From NCBI GenBank assembly GCA_947629785.1, contig CANRFB010000013.1:1-50454 (forward strand): DNA of 50,454 nt. The letters run 5' to 3'. Source of the stretch: an uncultured Clostridia bacterium. GTDB lineage: Bacteria; Bacillota; Clostridia; Oscillospirales; Ruminococcaceae. A program made the translations under genes and the position numbers. Positions 23,799 through 50,331 of this stretch are shown one piece after another (positions within the stretch are counted from its first letter, which is position 1; each line of letters begins with the position of its first letter). The notes under the pieces were generated by a model, which saw nothing but the letters and a program-made list of their open reading frames with translations, was not told the origin of the DNA and did no database searches.

Positions 23799-23892
23799 AA
23801 AAAAGCGCAAAAAGAGTGGAGATATGATTTTCAGAATAGTTTGCCTGCACGGTTATATGGGAATTTTGCCCGACAAAAATTTCTCTGATACC
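23799..23892 (+). repeat. Left inverted repeat of the island
   Basis: It opens with AAAAAAGCGCAAAAAGAG and TGGAGA, and closes with GCCCGACAAAAAT then TTCTCTGATAC. Against the reverse complement of the right end, the first 24 positions match at 23, the last 49 at 40, and the middle is diverged; one indel is needed. Confidence 0.7.
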
Positions 23893-23899
23893 CCCCGCG

Positions 23900-24277
23900 C
23901 TATGCTATCGCATAAGAACTTCTGCCTATCGGCAATTAAAACTTTTGCTATCGCATAAAGCCTGCTGCCTATCGGCAATAATTGCCGGTCGCGGGGCGAC
24001 CGGCGATGGTGTTTAAAAAAGAAAAAAGGTTAAAGTAAAGGGGAAATGCCTGCAAAACAAGAAATATTTCCGGTACATGACCGACATCACGTTCTGACAT
24101 TTTTATTATGACACGACGACATGACAGCATGACCGACATCACGTTCTGACAGTTGATTTGGCGGGTCTCCCGGCAGTTCCCTGTATCTGCAGAGAGGCTT
24201 GCCGGTTGCGGGCAACCGGCAATACCCTTTAAAATGGCATATAGATTAAGAGAAGGAAAAATGCCTGCTTAAAAAAC
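23900..24277 (+). other. Gene-free stretch with short dyads and 24-bp direct repeats
   Basis: No coding frame of note. TGCC-TATC-GGCA dyads occur twice before 24000, with two TGC-TATC-GCA variants between or beside them, then GCCGGTCGC-GGG-GCGACCGGC near 23985-24005. A 24-bp sequence containing GACCGACATCACGTTC occurs at 24076-24099 and again at 24128-24151. TTGCCGGTTGCGGGCAACCGGCAA forms another hairpin near 24200. Confidence 0.6.
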
Positions 24278-25390
24278 GAAAGGAGTGTTGCCTATCGGCA
24301 AATCAAAATAACCCACTATAACCATATAACACTTTAAAAATATAACCCAATAAAATAAAAAATGAAAGGGGTGTTGCCTATCGGCAGCTCAAAGTAACTA
24401 ACGGACATCATGTAAAACATTATTATATATGACATCATGCCCGACAGAGTGAGTGACATTAAACTGTGACATCACGACTGACAAACACATTCCGACATCT
24501 TGACTGACATCAACGGATACCTGCGGTGTGAACCGTGCCGCAAGGTCGGTTTCACGCCGCAGGCTGACAGAATCAAATACTTAATTTGCTAACCCGGTAA
24601 TCTTCATAGATTACGTCCTTTTACGGACACTGCAGGGTTTCTCGGCAGTTCCTGCCGAGAAACGTCTTGCATTTTGGCAGGGGTTAGTGCTTGCGCACTA
24701 ACGTTACAGTTATAAAATGAAAGAAAAAATGAAAGGGGGCTTGCCTATCGGCAAATCAAAATAACCCACTATAACCATATAACACTTTAAAAATATAACC
24801 CAATAAAATAAAAAATGAAAGGGGGTTTGCCTATCGGCAGCTCAAAGTAACTAACGGACATCATGTTCTGACATTTTATATATGACATCATGCCCGACAA
24901 AACACATTTGCTAATTATTAAACCCCGGTAATCTTCATAGATTACGTCCTTTTACGGACACTGCAGCGTTTCTCGGCAGTTCCTGCCGAGAAACGTCTTG
25001 CATTTTGGCAGGGGTTAGCGCTTGCGCGCTAACGATACAGTTATAAAATGAAAGAAAAATGAAAGGGGGCTTGCCTATCGGCAGCTCAAAGTAACTAACG
25101 GACATCATGTTCTGACATTTTTATATGACATCATGCCCGACAGAGTGAGTGACATTAAACTGTGACACCACGACTGACAAACACATTCCGACATCTTGAC
25201 TGACATCAACGGATATCTGCGGTGTGGACCGTGCCGCAAGGTCGGTTTCACGCCGCAGGCTGACAGAATCAAATACTTAATTTGCTGATCCGGTAATCTT
25301 CATAGATTACGTCCTTTTAAGGACACGGCAGAGTTTTCCGGCAGGTCTCAGTATCTGTCGGGAGGCTTTCTCGCCTTAACAAAGTAAAAA
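24278..25390 (+). repeat. Noncoding array of structured repeat units
   Basis: Three units (about 24361-24730, 24815-25058, 25059-25390) share the same order of elements: TGCCTATCGGCA dyad, GACATCA-type motifs, a 44-base hairpin CCTGCGGTGTGAACCG...CACGCCGCAGG, GTAATCT-TCAT-AGATTAC, GTTTCTCGGCAG-TTC-CTGCCGAGAAAC and GTTAGTGC-TTGC-GCACTAAC. Unit 2 lacks the 44-base hairpin, and the third unit diverges at its end. An 80-base AT-rich block is repeated at 24278-24360 and 24731-24814. Each unit starts with an 11-codon frame MKG(V/G)LPIG(S/K)SK-stop. Confidence 0.75.
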
Positions 25391-25433
25391 ATGAAAGGGG
25401 TGTTGCCTATCGGCAGCTCAAATTTACCTGTTA

Positions 25434-25600
25434 ACAAATTCAATTTTACAAACCAATTCGATAATGAAAGAGTGATCGCTATGCAAAAAACAAATTTTAC
25501 AAACCAATTCGATAATGAAAGGATGATCGCTATGCAAAAAACAAATTTTACAAACCAATCCAATAATGAAAGGATGATCGCTATGCAAAAAATAAATTTT
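25434..25600 (+). repeat. 51-bp tandem repeat carrying a ribosome site and ATG
   Basis: Three near-identical 51-bp units plus a partial one. Each holds AAAGAG or AAAGGA, then GATCGCT and ATGCAAAAA, so three in-frame starts (25481, 25532, 25583) each have their own ribosome site. The unit length is 17 codons, so gain or loss of a unit keeps the frame. Confidence 0.85.
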
Positions 25601-26311
25601 AAAAATCTTGTAAGGAACCATGAGGAGATCAGACAAACCATTGAGGCACTGAAAAGTGTACCTCCCGCATACATACCCTACTTGGCATATGAACCATATG
25701 ATATGATCGAAAAATTGGAGTACTTCCCCGACAGTACATTTGAAATGATATGTATGGAGCGGGAAAACGTCATTAAATCGGAATATTACGAATACAACGG
25801 CAAGCCGAGGTATGACGATGACGGTATCTGCTATGAACTCAGGTCATTATTGAGAAGAATAGGCGAGGGTATCATGTATACCAATGGATGTTCTGTTATT
25901 TATAATGTGAAACCATACAGCAGCAGATCAACGGCTGTTATGGACAGCTTTATGAGAATAGGCATACATGATTACATGGATACAATGTCCGAACTTATGG
26001 GAGATAAAGACCCGTTCCTGAGAGAAATAAGCAGTATCGGTGCAAATGCCGTTTTCGAGGCTATGGGAACAGATACGAGAGTCGCAGATGATGCAAAGCT
26101 GCATCGTTCCGATGTTTTCAGGCAGTTGGGAAATGACGTTTCCTTGGGCGATCTGCTGTATGCGGCTCTTGAGGTTTTAGATCACGCTCGCGGAGTTACG
26201 CTCAGCAACTCGCAGCACCCGACCGATGAACTTATAAAAGCATCATGGTTATTGAGTTCGGTACTGTTTGACCCTGTTGCAGCATTTTCCGATAACTATA
26301 TGACAACATAA
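25481..26311 (+). CDS. Unknown protein A of the island (paralog of protein C)
   Basis: A soluble, acidic protein of up to 276 aa with no family I recognise. The N-terminus is the 17-residue repeat MQKTNFTNQFDNERMIA (two full copies from this start); the core begins at the third ATG (25583, MQKINFKNLVRNHEE). Its second half resembles protein C: FMRIGIHDYMDTMSELMG matches FMRINVNDYIYTVNELLG, and SLGDLLYAALEVLDHAR with LLSSVLFDPVAA matches IGDVLYAAQQTMNKAR with LLTSILFDPLAA. The open frame reaches back to 25391 through a leader dyad. The true start is uncertain. Confidence 0.7.
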   Translation: MQKTNFTNQFDNERMIAMQKTNFTNQSNNERMIAMQKINFKNLVRNHEEIRQTIEALKSVPPAYIPYLAYEPYDMIEKLEYFPDSTFEMICMERENVIKSEYYEYNGKPRYDDDGICYELRSLLRRIGEGIMYTNGCSVIYNVKPYSSRSTAVMDSFMRIGIHDYMDTMSELMGDKDPFLREISSIGANAVFEAMGTDTRVADDAKLHRSDVFRQLGNDVSLGDLLYAALEVLDHARGVTLSNSQHPTDELIKASWLLSSVLFDPVAAFSDNYMTT

Positions 26312-26330
26312 CAAATTAACAAAATAAAAA

Positions 26331-26550
26331 ATGAAAGGGGGCTTGCCTATCGGCAGATCCAAGTAATTAACGGACATCATGTAAAACATTATTATATATG
26401 ACATCATGCCCGACAGAGTGAGTGACATTAAATAATGACATCCTGACTGACATCAGCGGATACCTGCGGTGTGAACCGACCTTGTGGTACGGTTTCACAC
26501 CGCAGGCTGACAGAATCAAAACTTATTATTCTGAAATCAAGGAGGTAATG
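26331..26550 (+). promoter_or_regulatory. Structured leader of the island operon
   Basis: A further copy of the repeat unit: the 11-codon frame MKGGLPIGRSK-stop (26331-26366), GACATCA motifs, and the hairpin CCTGCGGTGTGAACCG...CGGTTTCACACCGCAGG at 26463-26506. It ends in GGAGGT before protein B. Compared with the units at 24520 and 25216, stem positions vary but stay paired (T-A against T-G). Here the unit sits directly before genes, which suggests a regulatory RNA leader. Confidence 0.6.
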
Positions 26551-26553
26551 TCC

Positions 26554-26907
26554 ATGAATTTACGTGACATAAAATCAAAGAATGACGACCCGTCTATACG
26601 CGACCATACGCTTATATCAAAGGTGATCAACGACCTGCTGAAACTGCCGGTAAGCTCTGTTTATGCCGGCGTGGGCGATAACAGAGAGTACAAAAGCTAT
26701 AACAGTTTCGGCGATATACTGTACAATGATGAATACCACGATATGGGCAGTATGGCGGATCTTATGCGTGACATATGCGCATATCTGTCCAAGAATAACC
26801 ATTCAGAATGGGACACCGACATAAACGTCTGCACCAACCAGAATGACTGCACATACTTCCTGTTCTCATGGTTTTTGCAGATGGACAGCGACATCATACT
26901 TACATGA
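26554..26907 (+). CDS. Unknown protein B of the island
   Basis: A 117-aa protein, MNLRDIKSKNDDPSIRDHTL at the start, with a Cys/Asn/Asp-rich end. GGAGGT lies seven bases before the ATG at 26554; earlier in-frame ATGs lie in the leader hairpin. No signal peptide or membrane helix. A stretch DILYNDEYHDMGSMADLMRD weakly recalls the middle of protein A. It is the first gene of a four-gene operon. I do not recognise a family. Confidence 0.7.
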   Translation: MNLRDIKSKNDDPSIRDHTLISKVINDLLKLPVSSVYAGVGDNREYKSYNSFGDILYNDEYHDMGSMADLMRDICAYLSKNNHSEWDTDINVCTNQNDCTYFLFSWFLQMDSDIILT

Positions 26908-26923
26908 AAGTGAGGTAATGCTT

Positions 26924-27547
26924 ATGCAGACCAATATTGAAAAACTTATGGAAAAACTCCGGACAGAGTCCAATGCCAAGCACATTGTGAATATGTTCAT
27001 GCGCATAAATGTCAATGACTACATTTACACGGTCAATGAACTTCTTGGGGCATCAAGTCCGTTCCGACAAATTATCACGAATACGGAATCTGATATTATA
27101 TCATCATTATTTGATCCTATGCCTGCCGCAGCCGCTTCGCCGGCTGCGGATCGCTGTTCACCGCCCGAAAATCATACGGAATTTTCCGAACCCGACGATG
27201 ATGACTATTATTGCGATTATGATCTGCTTTTTGATGATGATGACGACTTTGATGACGATGATGACAATGTATACCACCCGACCACGGAAGCCTCATTCTG
27301 GCAGATGAGACTGCGGGGAGGTGAAAAAACCATTGGCGATGTGCTGTATGCGGCACAGCAGACAATGAATAAGGCCCGTGAAAAATACACGGACAAATAC
27401 AGGAAAAATCATGATTTTTCCGTCGTTTTTGACGAATTCCTGAAAGTAGGCTCTCTGCTCACTTCAATACTGTTCGATCCGCTTGCAGCGATCGCCATAA
27501 ACAATCAAAACAACGCCAACAACATAACAGAAAGGACTGATGTGTAA
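26924..27547 (+). CDS. Unknown protein C of the island, with acidic linker
   Basis: A 207-aa protein whose start at 26924 has GAGGT seven bases upstream, the same geometry as protein B. An N-terminal domain (FMRINVNDYIYTVNELLG, PFRQII) and a C-terminal domain (IGDVLYAAQQTMNKAREKY, LLTSILFDPLAA) are joined by a Pro/Ser linker and an extreme Asp run (DDDDYYCDYDLL and FDDDDDFDDDDDN). Both domains align with protein A, so the two are paralogs in which the linker differs. Its stop codon TAA overlaps the ATG of the protease gene. Function unknown. Confidence 0.75.
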   Translation: MQTNIEKLMEKLRTESNAKHIVNMFMRINVNDYIYTVNELLGASSPFRQIITNTESDIISSLFDPMPAAAASPAADRCSPPENHTEFSEPDDDDYYCDYDLLFDDDDDFDDDDDNVYHPTTEASFWQMRLRGGEKTIGDVLYAAQQTMNKAREKYTDKYRKNHDFSVVFDEFLKVGSLLTSILFDPLAAIAINNQNNANNITERTDV

Positions 27548-28149
27548 TGATGAATACAAACATCTTAAAGGAAAGCTCAAGAGGTGTTCAGCCGATAAGC
27601 ATTTCCGACATTCATTTCCGGAACAGAGTGATCTTCTTCACCGATGACGTAACTCCGACGTCCATGGAACGGCTCATTTCGCAGCTTCTGTTCCTTGAAA
27701 GCGAAGCTCCCGGCGAACCCGTTACCCTTATAATCAACAGCCCCGGAGGCGATGTAGAATCGGGCTTCGCGGCTGTTGACGTAATTGAGGGTATGACTTC
27801 GCCGCTTACTACCGTATGCACGGGAATTGCCGCGTCTATGGGCGCGATACTGTTCCTTGCGGGCAGTTCGAGAATAATCACACCCCATTCTAAACTGCTT
27901 ATCCATGACCCCAGCTACGGCGCGGGAAATCTTTCGGGAGTGAAACCTCTTAACATCAAAGAGGATCTGGACAGGCTCATGGCTGTGCGTTCCGAGCTTG
28001 CAGAGTACATCTCCAAACGCACCGGACAGCCCAAGGACGACGTTCTTGAACTCACCAAGACCGATTACTGGATGTCCGCAAACAAAGCCCTGAAATTCGG
28101 TGCTGCCACCGAGATCAGGAGATTCGTATTACCCGCCGACGAACAATAA
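27547..28149 (+). CDS. ClpP-fold serine protease
   Basis: A 200-aa ClpP/S14-family protease. Catalytic residues appear intact: Ser in GIAASMGAIL, His in LLIHDPS and Asp in TKTDYWMSANKAL. The INSPGGDVESG oxyanion strand is present. It is as long as housekeeping ClpP but differs in the N-terminal loop and lacks the usual YGLID end (here FGAATEI). It begins within the stop codon of protein C, and no Clp ATPase is adjacent, so it may use a cellular Clp/Lon ATPase or the ATPase gene that follows. Phage head-maturation proteases of this fold are an alternative, but no phage genes are present. Confidence 0.88.
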   Translation: MMNTNILKESSRGVQPISISDIHFRNRVIFFTDDVTPTSMERLISQLLFLESEAPGEPVTLIINSPGGDVESGFAAVDVIEGMTSPLTTVCTGIAASMGAILFLAGSSRIITPHSKLLIHDPSYGAGNLSGVKPLNIKEDLDRLMAVRSELAEYISKRTGQPKDDVLELTKTDYWMSANKALKFGAATEIRRFVLPADEQ

Positions 28150-28162
28150 AGGAGGAATTGCC

Positions 28163-29461
28163 ATGATGAAAACAATTTACATGAACAAAAGACTTATTAC
28201 AGAAGATTTTATTGTCAGCAATGACACCCGCAAGACCGGACTTAACAACAACGACCTTGTAATAGGCGTTTCCGGCGCGGGAAAAACAGGTTCGTACGTT
28301 ATTCCTAACATACTCAATACCGAGGACAGCTTTGTTGTCACGGACACAAAGTCCAATCTTTACAGAAATTACAGAAAGTCCCTTGAAAACAGGGGCTTTT
28401 CTGTATACAACATTGACCTTATCGACCCTGCAAACAGCATGGGTTACGACCCTCTTGACTATGTTGAAACTACTATGGTAAACGGCAGTATAAAATATTC
28501 CGAAAGGGATATTCTGTCAATTTCGACCGCTATATGTCCCACAACAGCCCATGACGACGCGTTCTGGCTGAATCAGGCAAGGACGTTTATATGCTGTCTT
28601 ATAACCTATGTCCTTGAGAATTTCGAGGGGGAAGAAAGGAATCTTGCCTCTGTGGCTGACCTTTTCAAAATATCGGGAGCGGCTGTACACAAGTATTTTA
28701 CCATACCTTTCCTTGATGAATACAGCGTTACAAACCCTGATTCCTATGCCACAAGATGCTATGAACTTCTAAAACCCGGATTCCGCAGTGATAAGACATG
28801 GGGCTGCATTGAACTTTTTGTTGCAAATGCTCTGCGCTGCTTCGACTTCGACAGTGCGCGGAAAATGCTTTCCATGCCCAAAACTTTCCGCTTTGAAAAT
28901 CTCGGAACGGAAAGGTGCGCGCTCTTCATCAATGTCAGCGACACCGACAGATGCCTTGACCCTATTGTGAATGTCTTTTATACACAGATATTCCAGACGC
29001 TTTGCAAAGTTGCCGACAACAGTCCCGACAGCAGACTGCCTGTTCCTGTCAGGGTAATTCTTGATGATTTTGCGGCAGGCACGGTAATACCCGATTTTGA
29101 TAAGCTTATCAGCGTTATCCGAAGCAGGGATATTTACACCAGCATTATCCTGCAAAGCATTTCACAGCTTGATTCGATATACTCCGCTTCTCAGAAATGG
29201 TCTATCGTAAACAACTGTGATACCATACTGTATCTGGGCGGTACGGACCTTACCACCATAGATTATCTTGCCGAACGTATACGCAAGCCCTCCGACGAGG
29301 TAATGGCTCTTGAACTTGATAAGGCGTATGTTATCCAGCGCGGCATGAAATCCGCACGCAAAGTCACCAAAACCAAGCCTTACACCATTAAGGAAAATTA
29401 CATTTCCCAGTGGGAACGTTACAACTTGCCCAATGCCTCGTCCGACATATTTTCCCGCTAA
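28163..29461 (+). CDS. VirD4/TraG-like ATPase (coupling-protein family), no membrane domain
   Basis: A 432-aa P-loop ATPase of the TraG/VirD4 family. Walker A is GVSGAGKT (35-42). A Walker-B-like strand reads VRVILDDFAAG (297-306), with Asp where coupling proteins usually have Glu. DTKSNLYRNY and SIILQSISQLDSIY are further family features. The N-terminal membrane helices of conjugative coupling proteins are missing. The start at 28163 follows AAAGGAGGA, 13 bases after the protease stop. With no relaxase, VirB4 or VirB6 nearby, it is either a stranded mobilisation gene or the motor of a different system. Confidence 0.85.
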   Translation: MMKTIYMNKRLITEDFIVSNDTRKTGLNNNDLVIGVSGAGKTGSYVIPNILNTEDSFVVTDTKSNLYRNYRKSLENRGFSVYNIDLIDPANSMGYDPLDYVETTMVNGSIKYSERDILSISTAICPTTAHDDAFWLNQARTFICCLITYVLENFEGEERNLASVADLFKISGAAVHKYFTIPFLDEYSVTNPDSYATRCYELLKPGFRSDKTWGCIELFVANALRCFDFDSARKMLSMPKTFRFENLGTERCALFINVSDTDRCLDPIVNVFYTQIFQTLCKVADNSPDSRLPVPVRVILDDFAAGTVIPDFDKLISVIRSRDIYTSIILQSISQLDSIYSASQKWSIVNNCDTILYLGGTDLTTIDYLAERIRKPSDEVMALELDKAYVIQRGMKSARKVTKTKPYTIKENYISQWERYNLPNASSDIFSR

Positions 29462-29482
29462 AATGCGGCATACGCAATACGA

Positions 29483-29522
29483 AGTCCGCACGGAACCTAA
29501 CCGTTCCGTGCGGACTTTTTTT
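29483..29522 (+). terminator. Strong intrinsic terminator of the island operon
   Basis: AGTCCGCACGGAA and TTCCGTGCGGACT form a long GC-rich stem, followed by a run of seven T. It ends the operon 22 bases after the ATPase gene. Confidence 0.92.
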
Positions 29523-29529
29523 ACAAATC

Positions 29530-29601
29530 TGCCATAGGCAAAAGAACTGATTCCCCTATGGGGAAAGTATAAATTAAGCGCCCTATGGGCGCTAAGGCGG
29601 C
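29530..29601 (+). repeat. Three dyads with TAT-type loops near the right end
   Basis: TGCC-ATA-GGCA, TTCCCC-TAT-GGGGAA and AGCGCCC-TAT-GGGCGCT follow one another. Loops are alike while stems differ, as in the TGCC-TATC-GGCA and TGC-TATC-GCA dyads at the left end of the island. Confidence 0.6.
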
Positions 29602-29693
29602 GTATCAGAAACATTTTTGTCGGGCGAAATCTTCATAGAACCGCGCAGGTATGCGTTTTAAAAAAATTGTCTCCACTCTTTTTGCACTTTTTT
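29602..29693 (-). repeat. Right inverted repeat of the island
   Basis: It is the counterpart of 23799-23892 in opposite orientation. It begins GTATCAGAAACATTTTTGTC and ends TCTCCACTCTTTTTGCACTT followed by a T-run. Confidence 0.7.
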
Positions 29694-45894: not shown

Positions 45895-48510
45895 TTAATT
45901 TTCGCTGTCGCCGTCCTCGCCGCCCGAAACATTATCCTGATTTATCAGCTTTCGCTGTAACCACATTTCGCGGGTAACAAGCACCGAACGGGGCTTTGAA
46001 CCCTCGTAAGGACCTACAACGCCAAGTTCTTCAAGTTCGTCCATAACGCGCGCCGCACGGGCATAGCCAAGCTTCAGCTTCCTCTGCAAGTATGATACAG
46101 AAGCTTGTCCCGCGTCTATAAGAACTTCCACCGCTTGGTCGATAATGTCTCCGTCTCCGCTTGGAACGCTGTCACTGTCGGAAGTGGATTTCTCTCCCTT
46201 GACCGCGGGCATATTCTTTTCTATCTCTTCAATAATTTCGCTGGAATATTCTACCGTTCCGCCGCTCTTGATAAATTCCACAACGGCTTCCACTTCCTTT
46301 GTGGAGGCAAAACAGCCCTGTATTCTGATAGGCTTGGGAATTCCCTGCGGGTAGTAGAGCATATCACCGTGACCAAGGAGTTTTTCCGCGCCTGCCGTGT
46401 CGATAATTGTTCGGCTGTCTATCTGGGAAGAAACGGTAAGGGCGATTCTTGAGGGGATATTTGCCTTGATAAGTCCCGTGATAACATCAACTGTCGGTCT
46501 TTGGGTCGCAATTATAAGGTGCATACCCGCCGCACGCGCCATCTGCGCAAGTCGGCATATGGAATCTTCCACTTCGTTGGAAGCCGCCATCATCAGGTCG
46601 GCAAGCTCGTCTATAATAATGACTATCTTAGGAAGCGGCTCAACGCCCTCTGTTTCCGCAGCCATTTCGTTGTAACTGCCATGGTCGCGGACATTGTAAT
46701 CCGCAAAAAGCTTGTAACGTTTCAGCATTTCCTGAACTGCCCACGAAAGCGCGCCTGCCGCCTTTCTCGGGTCGGTAACTACAGGAATGAGCAGGTGCGG
46801 GATCCCGTCATAAACCTTGAACTCGACCATCTTCGGGTCGATAAGCACAAGCCGCACTTCGTCCGGAGTTGCGTTGTATAGAATACTCATAATTATACTA
46901 TTTGTACAAACCGACTTACCCGAACCGGTAGTTCCCGCAATTATCATATGGGGCATTTTGGCAATATCGCCTATCATAATGTCGCCGTCAATGTTCTTTC
47001 CCACAACGAAGCTGAGCTTGCTTTTGTTGTTTGCGAACTCGGGGCTTTCTATCATTTCGCGGATGGTAACAATATCCTTTATTTTGTTGGGGACTTCCAC
47101 GCCGACGGCGGCTTTTCCGGGGATAGGGGCTTCAATTCTTACCCCTGCCGCCGCAAGGTTCAGGGCAATATCGTCCGCAAGTCCCGTTATTTTGGAAATT
47201 TTCACGCCCGCGCTGGGCTGGAGTTCATATCTTGTAACAGTCGGTCCGCGGTGAATATCCACAATTCTTGTCTGAACGCCGAAACTTTTCAGAGTGTCCA
47301 CAAGGGTGTCGGCGTTGGCTTTCATTTCCGCTTCGGCTTCCGCGGCGTTCAGGCTGTTGTCAACATCTTTCAGCAGGGAAATGGGCGGGAATGCGTATGC
47401 CGCCGTTTCCGTTTCCTGTTGGGAAATTTCCTGCTGAATGTCCGCCGCCGTGGGTGCGTCGGGCATATCAAGTTCTTCCTCGGTCTGGATCTTGTTTGAA
47501 GCGAGGGTGGATTGCTTCTTTGCTTTCTGTTCCGCGGTTTTCGGAACGTTCGGCGCCGCGGCGGGTTTCTTCTTTTCGGGAAGCGTGGCGGCTTTCTTTA
47601 TAATATCGTCAAGTTCGTTCTGAGCGGTCCTGACCTTTTCCACCGCTTCCTCGGAGGCTTTCGAGGGAACGGCTACGGGGTGTGCGGGCATTGAATTCAT
47701 GAAAATTTCCTGCTCGGAAAGTTCGGGCTTGTCTTCGGCTTTGGCGGAATTTTCCTCCGCTTTCTTGCCTTTCTGACCTGCGGGCATGGGAATATCCACA
47801 TTGAAATTTTTTGCCTTTTCCTTTACCACGCTTTGGGGAACGTCCGCATTGGGAACGGTTTTCCTGCCCTTTGGGGATTTAGCCCCCGGCGGCGGAACGA
47901 AATCGCCCTCATTTTCGGGAACATATTCCTCACGGGCGGCATTTGCCGCCGCAAATCCGCGTTTTATAAGATTTATCAGATCGATAACGGTCTTGTTTGC
48001 AAATATCATTATGAAAACGAACATCAGCAGAACGATGATTATCGCCGCCCCCGTTTTCTTGAAAAGCAATAACAGCGGAACTGCCAGCAGCGACCCGAAA
48101 ACGCCGCCGCCGCGGAGTTGTTTCCCCTCGGAATAAAGCAGCGGGATAATGTCGTCAAAGAAATTCCCCTCGGGAATCTCCGTTCCCGAAACTATCTGCA
48201 CAAAGGACGATACAAGGAAGATTATTATAAAGCACTGTATGACTTTGCCCTGAACAGCCTGTTTTGTCCTGTCGGTGGCTATCATAACTGAAACGTATAT
48301 CAGTATCACCGGAACGATAAACACCGAGAACCCGAACATTCCCAGAAAGATATTATGTATGCTGTGCCAAGCCGACTCGCCCTTTATCAGCGTAAAGAAA
48401 AGTATAAGCACTCCCAGCGCAAAAAGTATGGTCGACCACAGAACTCTGTCGCCGAGATTTGCTTCTTCCTGTGCGGCTTTTGAATTGGCGGGTCTTTTCT
48501 TTTCAGCCAC
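45895..48510 (-). CDS. ftsK: DNA translocase FtsK/SpoIIIE
   Basis: An 871-aa translocase. Four N-terminal membrane helices (about 20-175) are followed by an Ala/Pro/Lys/Glu-rich linker, then the motor with Walker A GTTGSGKS, Walker B VIIIDELADLMMA and the ATQRPTVDVITG segment. The C-terminal gamma winged helix (LQRKLKLGYARAARVMDELE) reads KOPS-type sequences. It moves chromosome DNA through the septum at division or sporulation. The start is GTG with GGGAGG upstream. It follows uppP and a TepA-like gene in the same direction. Confidence 0.96.
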   Translation of the reverse strand: MAEKKRPANSKAAQEEANLGDRVLWSTILFALGVLILFFTLIKGESAWHSIHNIFLGMFGFSVFIVPVILIYVSVMIATDRTKQAVQGKVIQCFIIIFLVSSFVQIVSGTEIPEGNFFDDIIPLLYSEGKQLRGGGVFGSLLAVPLLLLFKKTGAAIIIVLLMFVFIMIFANKTVIDLINLIKRGFAAANAAREEYVPENEGDFVPPPGAKSPKGRKTVPNADVPQSVVKEKAKNFNVDIPMPAGQKGKKAEENSAKAEDKPELSEQEIFMNSMPAHPVAVPSKASEEAVEKVRTAQNELDDIIKKAATLPEKKKPAAAPNVPKTAEQKAKKQSTLASNKIQTEEELDMPDAPTAADIQQEISQQETETAAYAFPPISLLKDVDNSLNAAEAEAEMKANADTLVDTLKSFGVQTRIVDIHRGPTVTRYELQPSAGVKISKITGLADDIALNLAAAGVRIEAPIPGKAAVGVEVPNKIKDIVTIREMIESPEFANNKSKLSFVVGKNIDGDIMIGDIAKMPHMIIAGTTGSGKSVCTNSIIMSILYNATPDEVRLVLIDPKMVEFKVYDGIPHLLIPVVTDPRKAAGALSWAVQEMLKRYKLFADYNVRDHGSYNEMAAETEGVEPLPKIVIIIDELADLMMAASNEVEDSICRLAQMARAAGMHLIIATQRPTVDVITGLIKANIPSRIALTVSSQIDSRTIIDTAGAEKLLGHGDMLYYPQGIPKPIRIQGCFASTKEVEAVVEFIKSGGTVEYSSEIIEEIEKNMPAVKGEKSTSDSDSVPSGDGDIIDQAVEVLIDAGQASVSYLQRKLKLGYARAARVMDELEELGVVGPYEGSKPRSVLVTREMWLQRKLINQDNVSGGEDGDSEN

Positions 48511-48554
48511 TTATTTTTCCTCCCTGTATTTTTTACAAATAATTATACTATTGA

Positions 48555-49421
48555 TTATTTTACAAAAGAAACTCTTGTTCCTGTTGTTATCTCGTAAATT
48601 GCGATTATAATGACGATTATGCCCAAAGCGAGGGTATACCAAGCAAAAATGCTGAACTTGTCGTTCATAACGAAAGCCTTTACGAGCCAGATGGCAAAAT
48701 ATCCCGCAACGGCTGAGACTATGAAGCTTACTATAAGGGGCAGGATATTTGCAGTAATTTCGCTTGCGGAAGCTTCGCCCAGTTTTACCACCGCGCCCGC
48801 AAGAATTACGGGGATCCCGAGTATAAAGCTGTATTCAACGGCGTCCTCGCGTTTCATGCCCGTGAAAAGCGCGGAACAGATAGTCGAGCCGGAGCGGGAA
48901 ATTCCCGGGACGAGGGCAATTCCCTGAAAAACACCTATTGTAAGCGCGGCGGGAACGGTGGTTTCCCCCGCGGTCTTTGTGCCTTTCCCGAACTTTGTAC
49001 TCAGGAAAAGCAGTGCGGACGTGTAGAGGAACGCGATTCCCTCCGCAAGAATTGACGGGTCGGAAGCAAGTCCCTCAAAGAAATCTTTGAATATGTAGAA
49101 TCCGAACAGGGGCAGAATGGAAATTATTATCATAATTATCATACGCCGTTCGGGGTTCATGGTTTTCCACTTGAATTTTCCGGTAAAAATATCGCCTATC
49201 ATTCTGAACGCCTCGATAATAAGCGCTTTTATCTTGTTCCAGAACGCCACAAACACCGCCAAAAGCGTTCCGAGGTGCAGGATAATGGTCATAGTCACCG
49301 CGCTTCCGCCGTCGAGACCGGTAAAGTGCTGGAAAAGCGACAGATGTCCCGAACTGGACACCGGCAGGAACTCTGTCAAGCCCTGTAAAATTCCCTGTAA
49401 GATTGCTTCAAGTACAGTCAT
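48555..49421 (-). CDS. uppP: Undecaprenyl-diphosphate phosphatase UppP (BacA)
   Basis: A 288-aa membrane protein with the two family motifs LTEFLPVSSSGHLSLF near the start and VPGISRSGSTI in the middle, and several membrane helices. It recycles the undecaprenyl carrier for cell-wall synthesis and affects bacitracin tolerance. AAAAGGAATATG gives the start. It sits 44 bases before ftsK. Confidence 0.96.
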   Translation of the reverse strand: MTVLEAILQGILQGLTEFLPVSSSGHLSLFQHFTGLDGGSAVTMTIILHLGTLLAVFVAFWNKIKALIIEAFRMIGDIFTGKFKWKTMNPERRMIIMIIISILPLFGFYIFKDFFEGLASDPSILAEGIAFLYTSALLFLSTKFGKGTKTAGETTVPAALTIGVFQGIALVPGISRSGSTICSALFTGMKREDAVEYSFILGIPVILAGAVVKLGEASASEITANILPLIVSFIVSAVAGYFAIWLVKAFVMNDKFSIFAWYTLALGIIVIIIAIYEITTGTRVSFVK

Positions 49422-49530
49422 AAAAACATATTCCTTTTCTGTTTATTTTTCAGGCAGCACCGCACAAAGCCGTAAGGCGGTCTTTTGCGCGGGGTTGCCT
49501 TATATAGATATTCCCGGAAAGTGCGGGAAA
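49422..49530 (-). other. tepA-uppP spacer with stem-loop
   Basis: The minus-strand mRNA can pair GCACCGCACAAAGCC-like and GGCGGTCTTTTGCGC-like segments around TTACGG (about 49456-49496). A T-run is absent, so it may tune relative expression of the two genes. Confidence 0.35.
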
Positions 49531-50256
49531 TTACCCATTATTATCGTCGGGATAGCGGGGTTCGCCGTTCTCGATGAGTTCGTAAAGCGCGCTTATGGCG
49601 TCGGAAAGTGTTCCCAGCGAGTCTATCAGACCCTCGGAAACCGCGGCGTCGCCGTCAAGGACGGTACCCATGTCCATGGTAAGTTCGCCCGTATTCATAA
49701 CAAGTTCCCTGTAGCGTTCGGGGGGAATTCTGCTGTTGCTTGAGACGAACTTGATTATCCTGTCCTGCATTTTCTCGAAATAGGACATAGTCTGGGGAAC
49801 GCCGAGGATAGTGCCGTTCATTCTCACGGGGTGGATAGTCATGGTAGCGCTTGGGACGATGAAAGATTTTTTGGCGGAAACTGCAAGCGGCACGCCTATG
49901 GAATGTCCGCCGCCTATCACCAGCGAAACGGTAGGCGTTTTCATACCGGCGATAAGTTCGGCGATGGCAAGACCTGCTTCCACATCTCCGCCCACGGTAT
50001 TGAGAATGATTATCAGTCCCTCAATGGAGCGGTCCTGTTCGATAGCCACAAGGGCGGGCATGATATGTTCGTACTTGGTGGTTTTATTCTGGGGCGGCAG
50101 GATATAGTGACCCTCCACCTGACCTATCACGGTCAGGCAGTGAATAAGGTGTTTGGAATTCTGTGAAATCACCTCGCCGGTTTTTTCGATAAGGTCGGCT
50201 TGGTCTATTTGTTCCTCGGTGACGGTCTTGTCGTAGTTTTCCTCGCAGTTTTGCAT
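49531..50256 (-). CDS. TepA-like ClpP-family protease
   Basis: A 241-aa ClpP-fold protein with an N-terminal extension. Catalytic Ser is in [10 protein letters not shown], His in [26 protein letters not shown] forms the oxyanion strand. TepA-type genes lie next to spoIIIE/ftsK in Bacillus as here. The family has been linked to protein export and spore biology in Bacillus; the role here is inferred. The second ATG (50256) has AAAGGA seven bases upstream; the first ATG is too close to that site. Confidence 0.88.
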
Positions 50257-50331
50257 ATTCATATCCTTTCCCGATACTGTTTTTGGAAATATTCTGCCGC
50301 GGAAAGTTCAAAAATATGCACAATTTAAATA

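Follow-up and report, generated by a model that had tools for sequence, protein, structure and literature searches.

What joins a ClpP-like protease to a VirD4-like ATPase, when the customary partner of neither is encoded beside them, is the question raised by an island of about 5.9 kb in the genome of an uncultured Clostridia bacterium of the family Ruminococcaceae. The island lies in a 50,454-nt stretch of DNA (GenBank assembly GCA_947629785.1, contig CANRFB010000013.1, positions 1 to 50,454 of the forward strand), which as a whole we call the window. An initial annotation, made from the letters alone, had described open reading frames (ORFs) encoding three unfamiliar proteins (A, B, and C), the protease, and the ATPase, with all but that of A tightly packed, and ORF calls and family matches confirm this arrangement (table 1): the gap between the B and C genes is 16 nt, the C and ClpP genes overlap by 1 nt (or stand at +2 from the second ATG), and 13 nt separate the ClpP and VirD4 genes. 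The statement that neither a Clp unfoldase nor a conjugation gene accompanies them is borne out as well; searches with Pfam and NCBIfam reveal no AAA+ Clp unfoldase in the window's operon, where the VirD4-like ATPase is found instead, and relaxase or mating-channel genes are present neither in this operon nor among the 25 of 99 neighbor Pfam families listed. At the operon end, where a strong terminator had been proposed, positions 29482–29517 can form a hairpin of 15 perfectly matched base pairs and a 6-nt loop, followed by a T-run; a separate terminator scan did not include this hairpin among its calls.

Recurrence of the ClpP–VirD4 gene pair

The window ATPase served as query against 61 genomes; an alignment of 13 ATPase sequences was then used to search a named collection, and ClpP was no part of either search. 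The collection search returned 385 relatives and 79 loci were kept, including records named Ruminococcus, Oscillospiraceae, Lachnospiraceae, Blautia luti, and Slackia equolifaciens among others; some are close relatives or re-finds of earlier loci, and therefore not all are independent. Although these loci were selected by VirD4 alone, ClpP is encoded within 1.5 kb of VirD4 in 73 of the 79, lying directly upstream in 67, with one gene between in two, and just downstream in four, so the gene order that the initial annotation had singled out does recur. ClpP is likewise found in the flank of all ten loci that belong to this VirD4 clade or to its near relative (L003–L012, the window included), as opposed to none of 20 conjugation-type VirD4 loci (L013–L032), in a comparison of flanks of up to about 1.5 kb that were shorter at a few control loci. 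Of 65 adjacent pairs that could be measured, 49 have a spacing of −20 to +30 nt and 13 an ATGA overlap; among alternative VirD4 starts, the one closest to the ClpP stop was used, which favors small gaps. Distances among the ClpP sequences correlate with those among the VirD4 sequences (r = 0.835, n = 73; the highest value in 1,000 permutations was 0.111). By these sequence comparisons the recurring operon is well established, and ClpP and VirD4 are its conserved, co-varying, and tightly packed unit, to which a family of fast-evolving partners (A, B, and C) is often added.

A second ClpP–VirD4-like pair is represented by L011, L012, and L050, the last of which is encoded in the window's own genome (G000:C12). 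The ATPase of this pair is N-terminally extended (545 aa), and this pair looks stably inherited because its ClpP is 87–94% identical in two related genomes.

The two enzymes and their associated proteins

The module ClpPs share with the housekeeping ClpP that serves ClpX, ClpA, or ClpC the fold family, a similar length, and the catalytic triad (Ser and His in all 77 aligned sequences, Asp in 75), and the PDB matches listed are ClpPs. In contrast to the housekeeping protein, the window ClpP misses the NCBIfam ClpP equivalog cut-off (116.6 bits against 308.6), the unfoldase pocket of the module ClpPs is partly changed, and a VirD4-like ATPase is co-encoded in place of a Clp ATPase. In Escherichia coli ClpP, residues Y62, F82, and F112 are part of the pocket that receives the loops of the unfoldase; the F112-equivalent is a glutamate in 46 of 77 module ClpPs, and the F82-equivalent is mostly leucine, methionine, or alanine. 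These predicted pocket changes agree with an altered partner but are no proof of one. A prohead protease with a packaging ATPase was considered and rejected, as the head-maturation model gave 72 bits and the best ordinary ClpP model 143.

The window ATPase passes the cut-off of NF045973 (279.8 bits against 250), matches PF02534 (2.6e-36), and has Cag5 as its only sequence match in PDB (1.7e-10), features that it shares with the VirD4/TraG coupling proteins of the CD1115 family. Automatic annotation likely hides the operon as a Clp protease plus a conjugal transfer protein, given that the ATPase passes the NCBIfam cut-off for the latter. Unlike those coupling proteins, the module ATPase has a ClpP neighbor, a DD Walker B motif (kept together with Walker A in all 13 aligned sequences), and no N-terminal membrane anchor. 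The median number of residues ahead of Walker A is 37 in module ATPases, and a stretch with Kyte–Doolittle hydropathy of at least 1.6 precedes this motif in none of 71 (75 module ORFs less four without a recognized Walker A), versus 13 of the 16 conjugation-type controls that were measurable among 20.

None of A, B, and C reaches the cut-off of a Pfam family, nor do NCBIfam, PADLOC, or PHROGs give a match to them at the E-values applied, and PADLOC (E ≤ 0.1) likewise matches neither the ClpP nor the window ATPase. Assignment of B as a ClpS adaptor was rejected (E of 0.093 over 23 residues, not significant). The initial annotation had regarded A and C as paralogs, which their alignment supports (24% over 178 aa; 7e-11 with composition correction off); profiles of B and C also align with each other (hhalign probability of 96%), and some longer proteins entered both. 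Run against the ORFs around VirD4 (to about 3.5 kb on its upstream and 3 kb on its downstream side; E < 1e-3), iterated profiles match B in 33 and C in 38 of 80 loci. Among 21 genomes of the genus, 12 of 13 B matches have a VirD4 of this clade no more than about 3 kb away, some of them at loci without ClpP, and the single exception (G001:C8) has neither enzyme nearby; all six C matches are at clade VirD4 loci, three being the window's own A and C. Since the profiles were built from VirD4 loci, the scarcity of other matches is the informative part, and by this measure the homologs of A–C are hardly scattered in the genus, a point on which the initial annotation had staked its reading. An AlphaFold2 model of C is all-helical with moderate confidence (pLDDT 71, pTM 0.59). 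Proteins of about 270–510 aa without a Pfam family recur, often paired, beside the modules of L042, L044, L064, L065, and L071, and are possible further components.

Rates of substitution separate the enzymes from these partners. Estimates of the ratio of nonsynonymous to synonymous substitution (dN/dS) are rough because dS exceeds 1 in many pairs; they span 0.025–0.193 over ClpP and VirD4 pairs, and within G016, a genome with several copies, they are 0.025–0.053 for VirD4 and 0.027–0.080 for ClpP (four copies each). In the comparison of L033 with L034, the two enzymes have values of 0.09 and 0.10, as compared with 0.28 for B and 0.35 for C. From these ratios the enzyme core is judged to be under constraint (purifying selection), while its partners evolve faster.

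The surroundings of 17 of the 79 loci (to about 7 kb on the upstream side and 5 kb on the downstream side) encode an additional domain of about 275 residues without a Pfam name, the other 62 loci having no such gene in the stretch examined. The count of 17 is that of the domain-alone profile, to whose alignment many of these same loci supplied rows; a helicase-containing profile or a loose cluster gave 18 or 19. The domain occurs within RecQ-like helicases at 11 loci (L051, L052, L053, L057, L081, L083, L099, L104, L108, L122, and L128, of which L051/L052 and L104/L108 are close relatives), fused to DnaB-like ATPases at two (L095 and L112), and as a separate protein at four (L054, L066, L067, and L076), adjoined by a DnaB-like ATPase gene at L054 (by Pfam) and at L066 and L076 (by eye). 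Examples are L067:286-1218, L112:11389-12246, and L057:5543-6436. Part of its conserved pattern may resemble replication-initiator winged helices. The domain is found in 8 of the 61 genomes searched. A RecQ-like protein of L034 matches PADLOC helicase models such as DpdF.

The island and its genomic setting

Table 1. Features of the island, in window coordinates.
Feature	Position	Strand	Remarks
Left inverted end	23799..23894	+	Pairs with right end
Repeat-rich leader, no clear genes	23903..25430	+	Repeat unit with TTGCCTATCGGCA and several small hairpins
Protein A	25391..26311	+	Paralog of C, family unassigned; likely start within 25391-25583
Extra copy of leader repeat, 5' of B	26318..26520	+	Repeat search
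Protein B, small, fast-evolving	26554..26907	+	Profile matches near VirD4
Protein C, small, fast-evolving, acidic insert, predicted all-helical	26924..27547	+	
ClpP-like serine protease, Ser-His-Asp triad intact	27547..28149	+	PF00574, 1e-43
Soluble VirD4/TraG-like ATPase, CD1115-related, without N-terminal membrane region	28163..29461	+	NF045973
Intrinsic-terminator-like hairpin and T-run	29482..29524	+	Perfect 15-bp inverted repeat
Right inverted end	29599..29693	-	Pairs with left end

Upstream of the protein genes, about 1.5 kb (23.9–25.4 kb) consists of internal repeats. The sequence TTGCCTATCGGCA occurs seven times in the window, always within 24288–26355 (0.01 expected), and the region 24000–25400 has no match in the other 20 genomes of the genus. 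The start region of protein A contains three tandem 51-nt repeats, with further in-frame starts at 25481, 25532, and 25583. Inspection by eye of the leader and of the extra repeat copy reveals a short recurring frame that starts MKG(V/G)LPIG and is also in frame at the A start; these repeats are possibly leader peptides or remnants of duplicated genes. A structured RNA was sought in the leader and rejected, as no Rfam family scored above threshold and one CRISPR-repeat match was sub-threshold (E of 0.076).

Considered across genomes, the operon is, on its distribution among the sequences searched, an accessory and patchy chromosomal system, mainly of Clostridia, carried by some gut and rumen bacteria. 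At a strict threshold, with at most six candidates scored per genome, the ATPase is found in 3 of 293 genomes of the class, including that of the window. We sampled 113 of the 126 nearest non-module neighbors at 70 loci, nine of the 79 being skipped as near-duplicates or tiny; no Pfam family is shared by more than two of these proteins, and the families, among the 25 of 99 listed, are mostly of ordinary cellular functions. Genes of mobile elements were chosen by eye, and their counts are minimum numbers: two G016 copies (L039 and L049) have a tyrosine integrase in their vicinity, two others have IS66 and IS4/5-family insertion-sequence genes, and the G012 copy (L043) has a serine recombinase, with recombinase genes near three of the 18 loci compared with the island. 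A few loci have neighbors like those of integrative and conjugative elements (ICEs), such as L126, which is beside DUF3991/Toprim, and L130. Carriage as phage or plasmid cargo was rejected, given that all matching records in plasmid and phage collections are below 60% identity (about 30–35% among those listed); one IMG/VR contig carries the ClpP–VirD4 pair.

In G016, an ATPase of this clade is encoded at nine places, several of which are truncated or lie at the end of a contig. DNA matches between the copies are mostly 71–93% identical, and those with the right end in view mostly share the same end just past a terminator-like hairpin. Three of the copies (L046–L048) are decayed or truncated modules that retain part of VirD4 only, with no ClpP match, and one of these has a Rhs-like fragment at the break, as judged by eye.

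The long inverted ends that the initial annotation had noticed are real: 23799–23894 matches 29599–29693 in inverted orientation with 78% identity over 96 columns (blastn, E of 5.8e-15), and the two 200-bp end regions align locally with a score of 86, whereas 500 mononucleotide shuffles reach 29 at most. Its further suggestion, a mobile element bounded by these ends, is not borne out. The ends have no further occurrence in their own genome, and the other 147 of 148 genomes of the family contain only fragments of 19–25 bases, in six genomes. Self-comparison of 18 other loci, several of which are cut by contig ends, yielded no comparable inverted pair. The best of these (L036, G018:C151; 70% over 80 bp, E of 7e-4) flanks a module that sits between two chemoreceptor genes of opposite orientation, and the coding similarity of these two genes accounts for the weak pair. 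In a comparison aimed at an empty site, the genes flanking the island are not adjacent to each other in the relatives examined. The inverted ends, which none of the other copies compared was seen to have, do not explain how the operon moves, and it may be mobile by other means.

A candidate proteolytic machine and its alternatives

We tentatively favor a reading of the gene content in which a soluble VirD4-type ring drives a dedicated ClpP, with A, B, and C as adaptors or targets; this would be the most likely of the explanations weighed here, ahead of a DNA pump, a part of a mobile element, a cellular role, and a transposon, although it falls somewhat short of probable. The ATPase would form a ring like its VirD4 and HerA relatives, and the anchor-less protein would dock on ClpP and unfold or thread protein into its chamber, with a motor of the FtsK/HerA superfamily taking the place of the usual AAA+ partner and A, B, and C acting as adaptors, gates, or substrates that set specificity. 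More weakly, we infer that the targets may be DNA-associated proteins of invading or replicating elements, given that a helicase or DnaB-like ATPase with a common extra domain accompanies roughly one locus in five and that the operon has a sporadic distribution, with multiple copies in some cases and signs of decay at some sites. On this reading the operon would probably act in genome conflict. Both a ring that feeds the protease and a defense role, as the initial annotation had suggested, would fit the data. The fuller proposal, a new kind of ATP-dependent protease in which a pump of the FtsK/HerA superfamily, related to conjugative coupling proteins and free of a membrane anchor, would drive a dedicated ClpP while diversifying A, B, and C together with optional helicases aim it at proteins of foreign or replicating DNA, we consider possible but doubtful.

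Several observations weigh against these proposals. Five of the 79 VirD4 loci (L096, L097, L098, L102, and L114) have room for a ClpP gene within 1.5 kb and do not contain one, although another ClpP and VirD4 lie about 7 kb away at L097; at the sixth locus without it (L105), the contig begins there. B or C is detected in just 43 of 80 loci. No ClpP–VirD4 fusion was found, the 75 VirD4 ORFs measured being 398–516 aa, and no ClpP-docking motif was recognized by eye in the 13-sequence VirD4 alignment. As for the pocket, the F112-equivalent is leucine in nine and isoleucine in six of 77 module ClpPs, and the Y62-equivalent is still tyrosine in 45; given that the housekeeping ClpP of the window's own genome has tyrosine at the F82-equivalent and leucine at the F112-equivalent, only part of the pocket difference separates the two kinds of ClpP. 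An unfoldase of the host could also serve the module ClpP. With respect to the extra domain, three of the eight genomes that encode it (G015, G019, and G011) have it at a clade VirD4 locus and five do not; neither enzyme is present in the stretches around the matches in G017, G048, and G012, and the window's own genome has no match.

VirD4 and HerA relatives are DNA pumps, and the module ATPase may therefore move DNA rather than protein, as a HerA/VirD4-like translocase directed against invaders and possibly loaded by a helicase, with ClpP cleaving A, B, C, or a host target after foreign DNA is sensed. The RecQ-like and DnaB-like partners would fit such a role, as would weak matches of the PADLOC model mad8 to two relatives of the ATPase (L050, 1.6e-6; L036, 0.0023); we nevertheless think it unlikely, as most loci have no extra-domain gene in the stretch examined, no nuclease was noticed by eye as a recurrent operon member among the neighbors listed, and the 26 PADLOC models matched by the 113 neighbors, in a search run without a random comparison set, match one protein each among the 25 listed. 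A housekeeping or developmental role is suggested by the mostly cellular neighbors, by the conservation of the L050 ClpP in two relatives, and by a second neighborhood of this kind in the window itself, where an FtsK-type DNA translocase (45895–48510, minus strand) is encoded two genes from a ClpP-related ORF (49531–50262, same strand). Such a role appears improbable for an operon with the sporadic distribution described above and with nine places in G016 that include truncated copies.

Equally improbable, in our estimation, is that the pair is a piece of a conjugative, mobilizable, or integrative element, namely a coupling protein with an accessory protease. The NCBIfam name of the ATPase, the ICE-like genes beside L126 and L130, and the integrases and serine recombinase near the G016 and G012 copies point in this direction; they are opposed by an ATPase without a membrane region, by neighbors among which no Pfam family recurs in more than two proteins, and by the distant plasmid and phage records. 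A transposon with inverted ends of about 95 bp, moved by a transposase encoded elsewhere, would account for the ends themselves, for the common right end of the G016 copies, and for the insertion-sequence genes near two of them. However, the ends are found at no other copy examined, which largely refutes it; in addition, no target duplication was seen by eye, Pfam and NCBIfam detect no transposase inside the island, and we regard this explanation as very improbable.

Returning to the ring-driven protease, two known arrangements offer a comparison. HerA-type defense ATPases pair with SIR2 or nuclease partners, and the module ATPase is presumably in the same superfamily; both are encoded in small operons with an effector enzyme and have an accessory distribution, but the effector here is a ClpP protease rather than a nuclease or NADase, and no PADLOC model matches the five proteins of the window's operon. 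The ClpP-like/FtsK neighborhood of Firmicutes, of which the one at 45895–50262 is an example and which we take to be TepA–SpoIIIE, similarly places a ClpP-like protein near an FtsK-type pump, and differs in that the pump is not VirD4-like, a gene lies between, and A, B, and C are absent. To our knowledge, the motors of energy-dependent barrel proteases are AAA+ proteins, namely those of the Clp, HslU, Lon, FtsH, and proteasomal types. We found no description of a ClpP–VirD4 operon among the literature matches listed, in a search of titles and the starts of abstracts with subscription literature mostly outside its reach.

If the proposed reading is true, the ClpP–VirD4 operon looks like a protein-destroying machine with an unusual motor that is so far undescribed. 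The pairing of ClpP with a coupling-type ATPase would then mean that a protease can draw its motor from the FtsK/HerA pump family, and it would offer a test case for what these pumps can move. If the machine is in addition aimed at proteins of foreign or replicating DNA, an immune protease would have arisen from a motor of DNA transfer.

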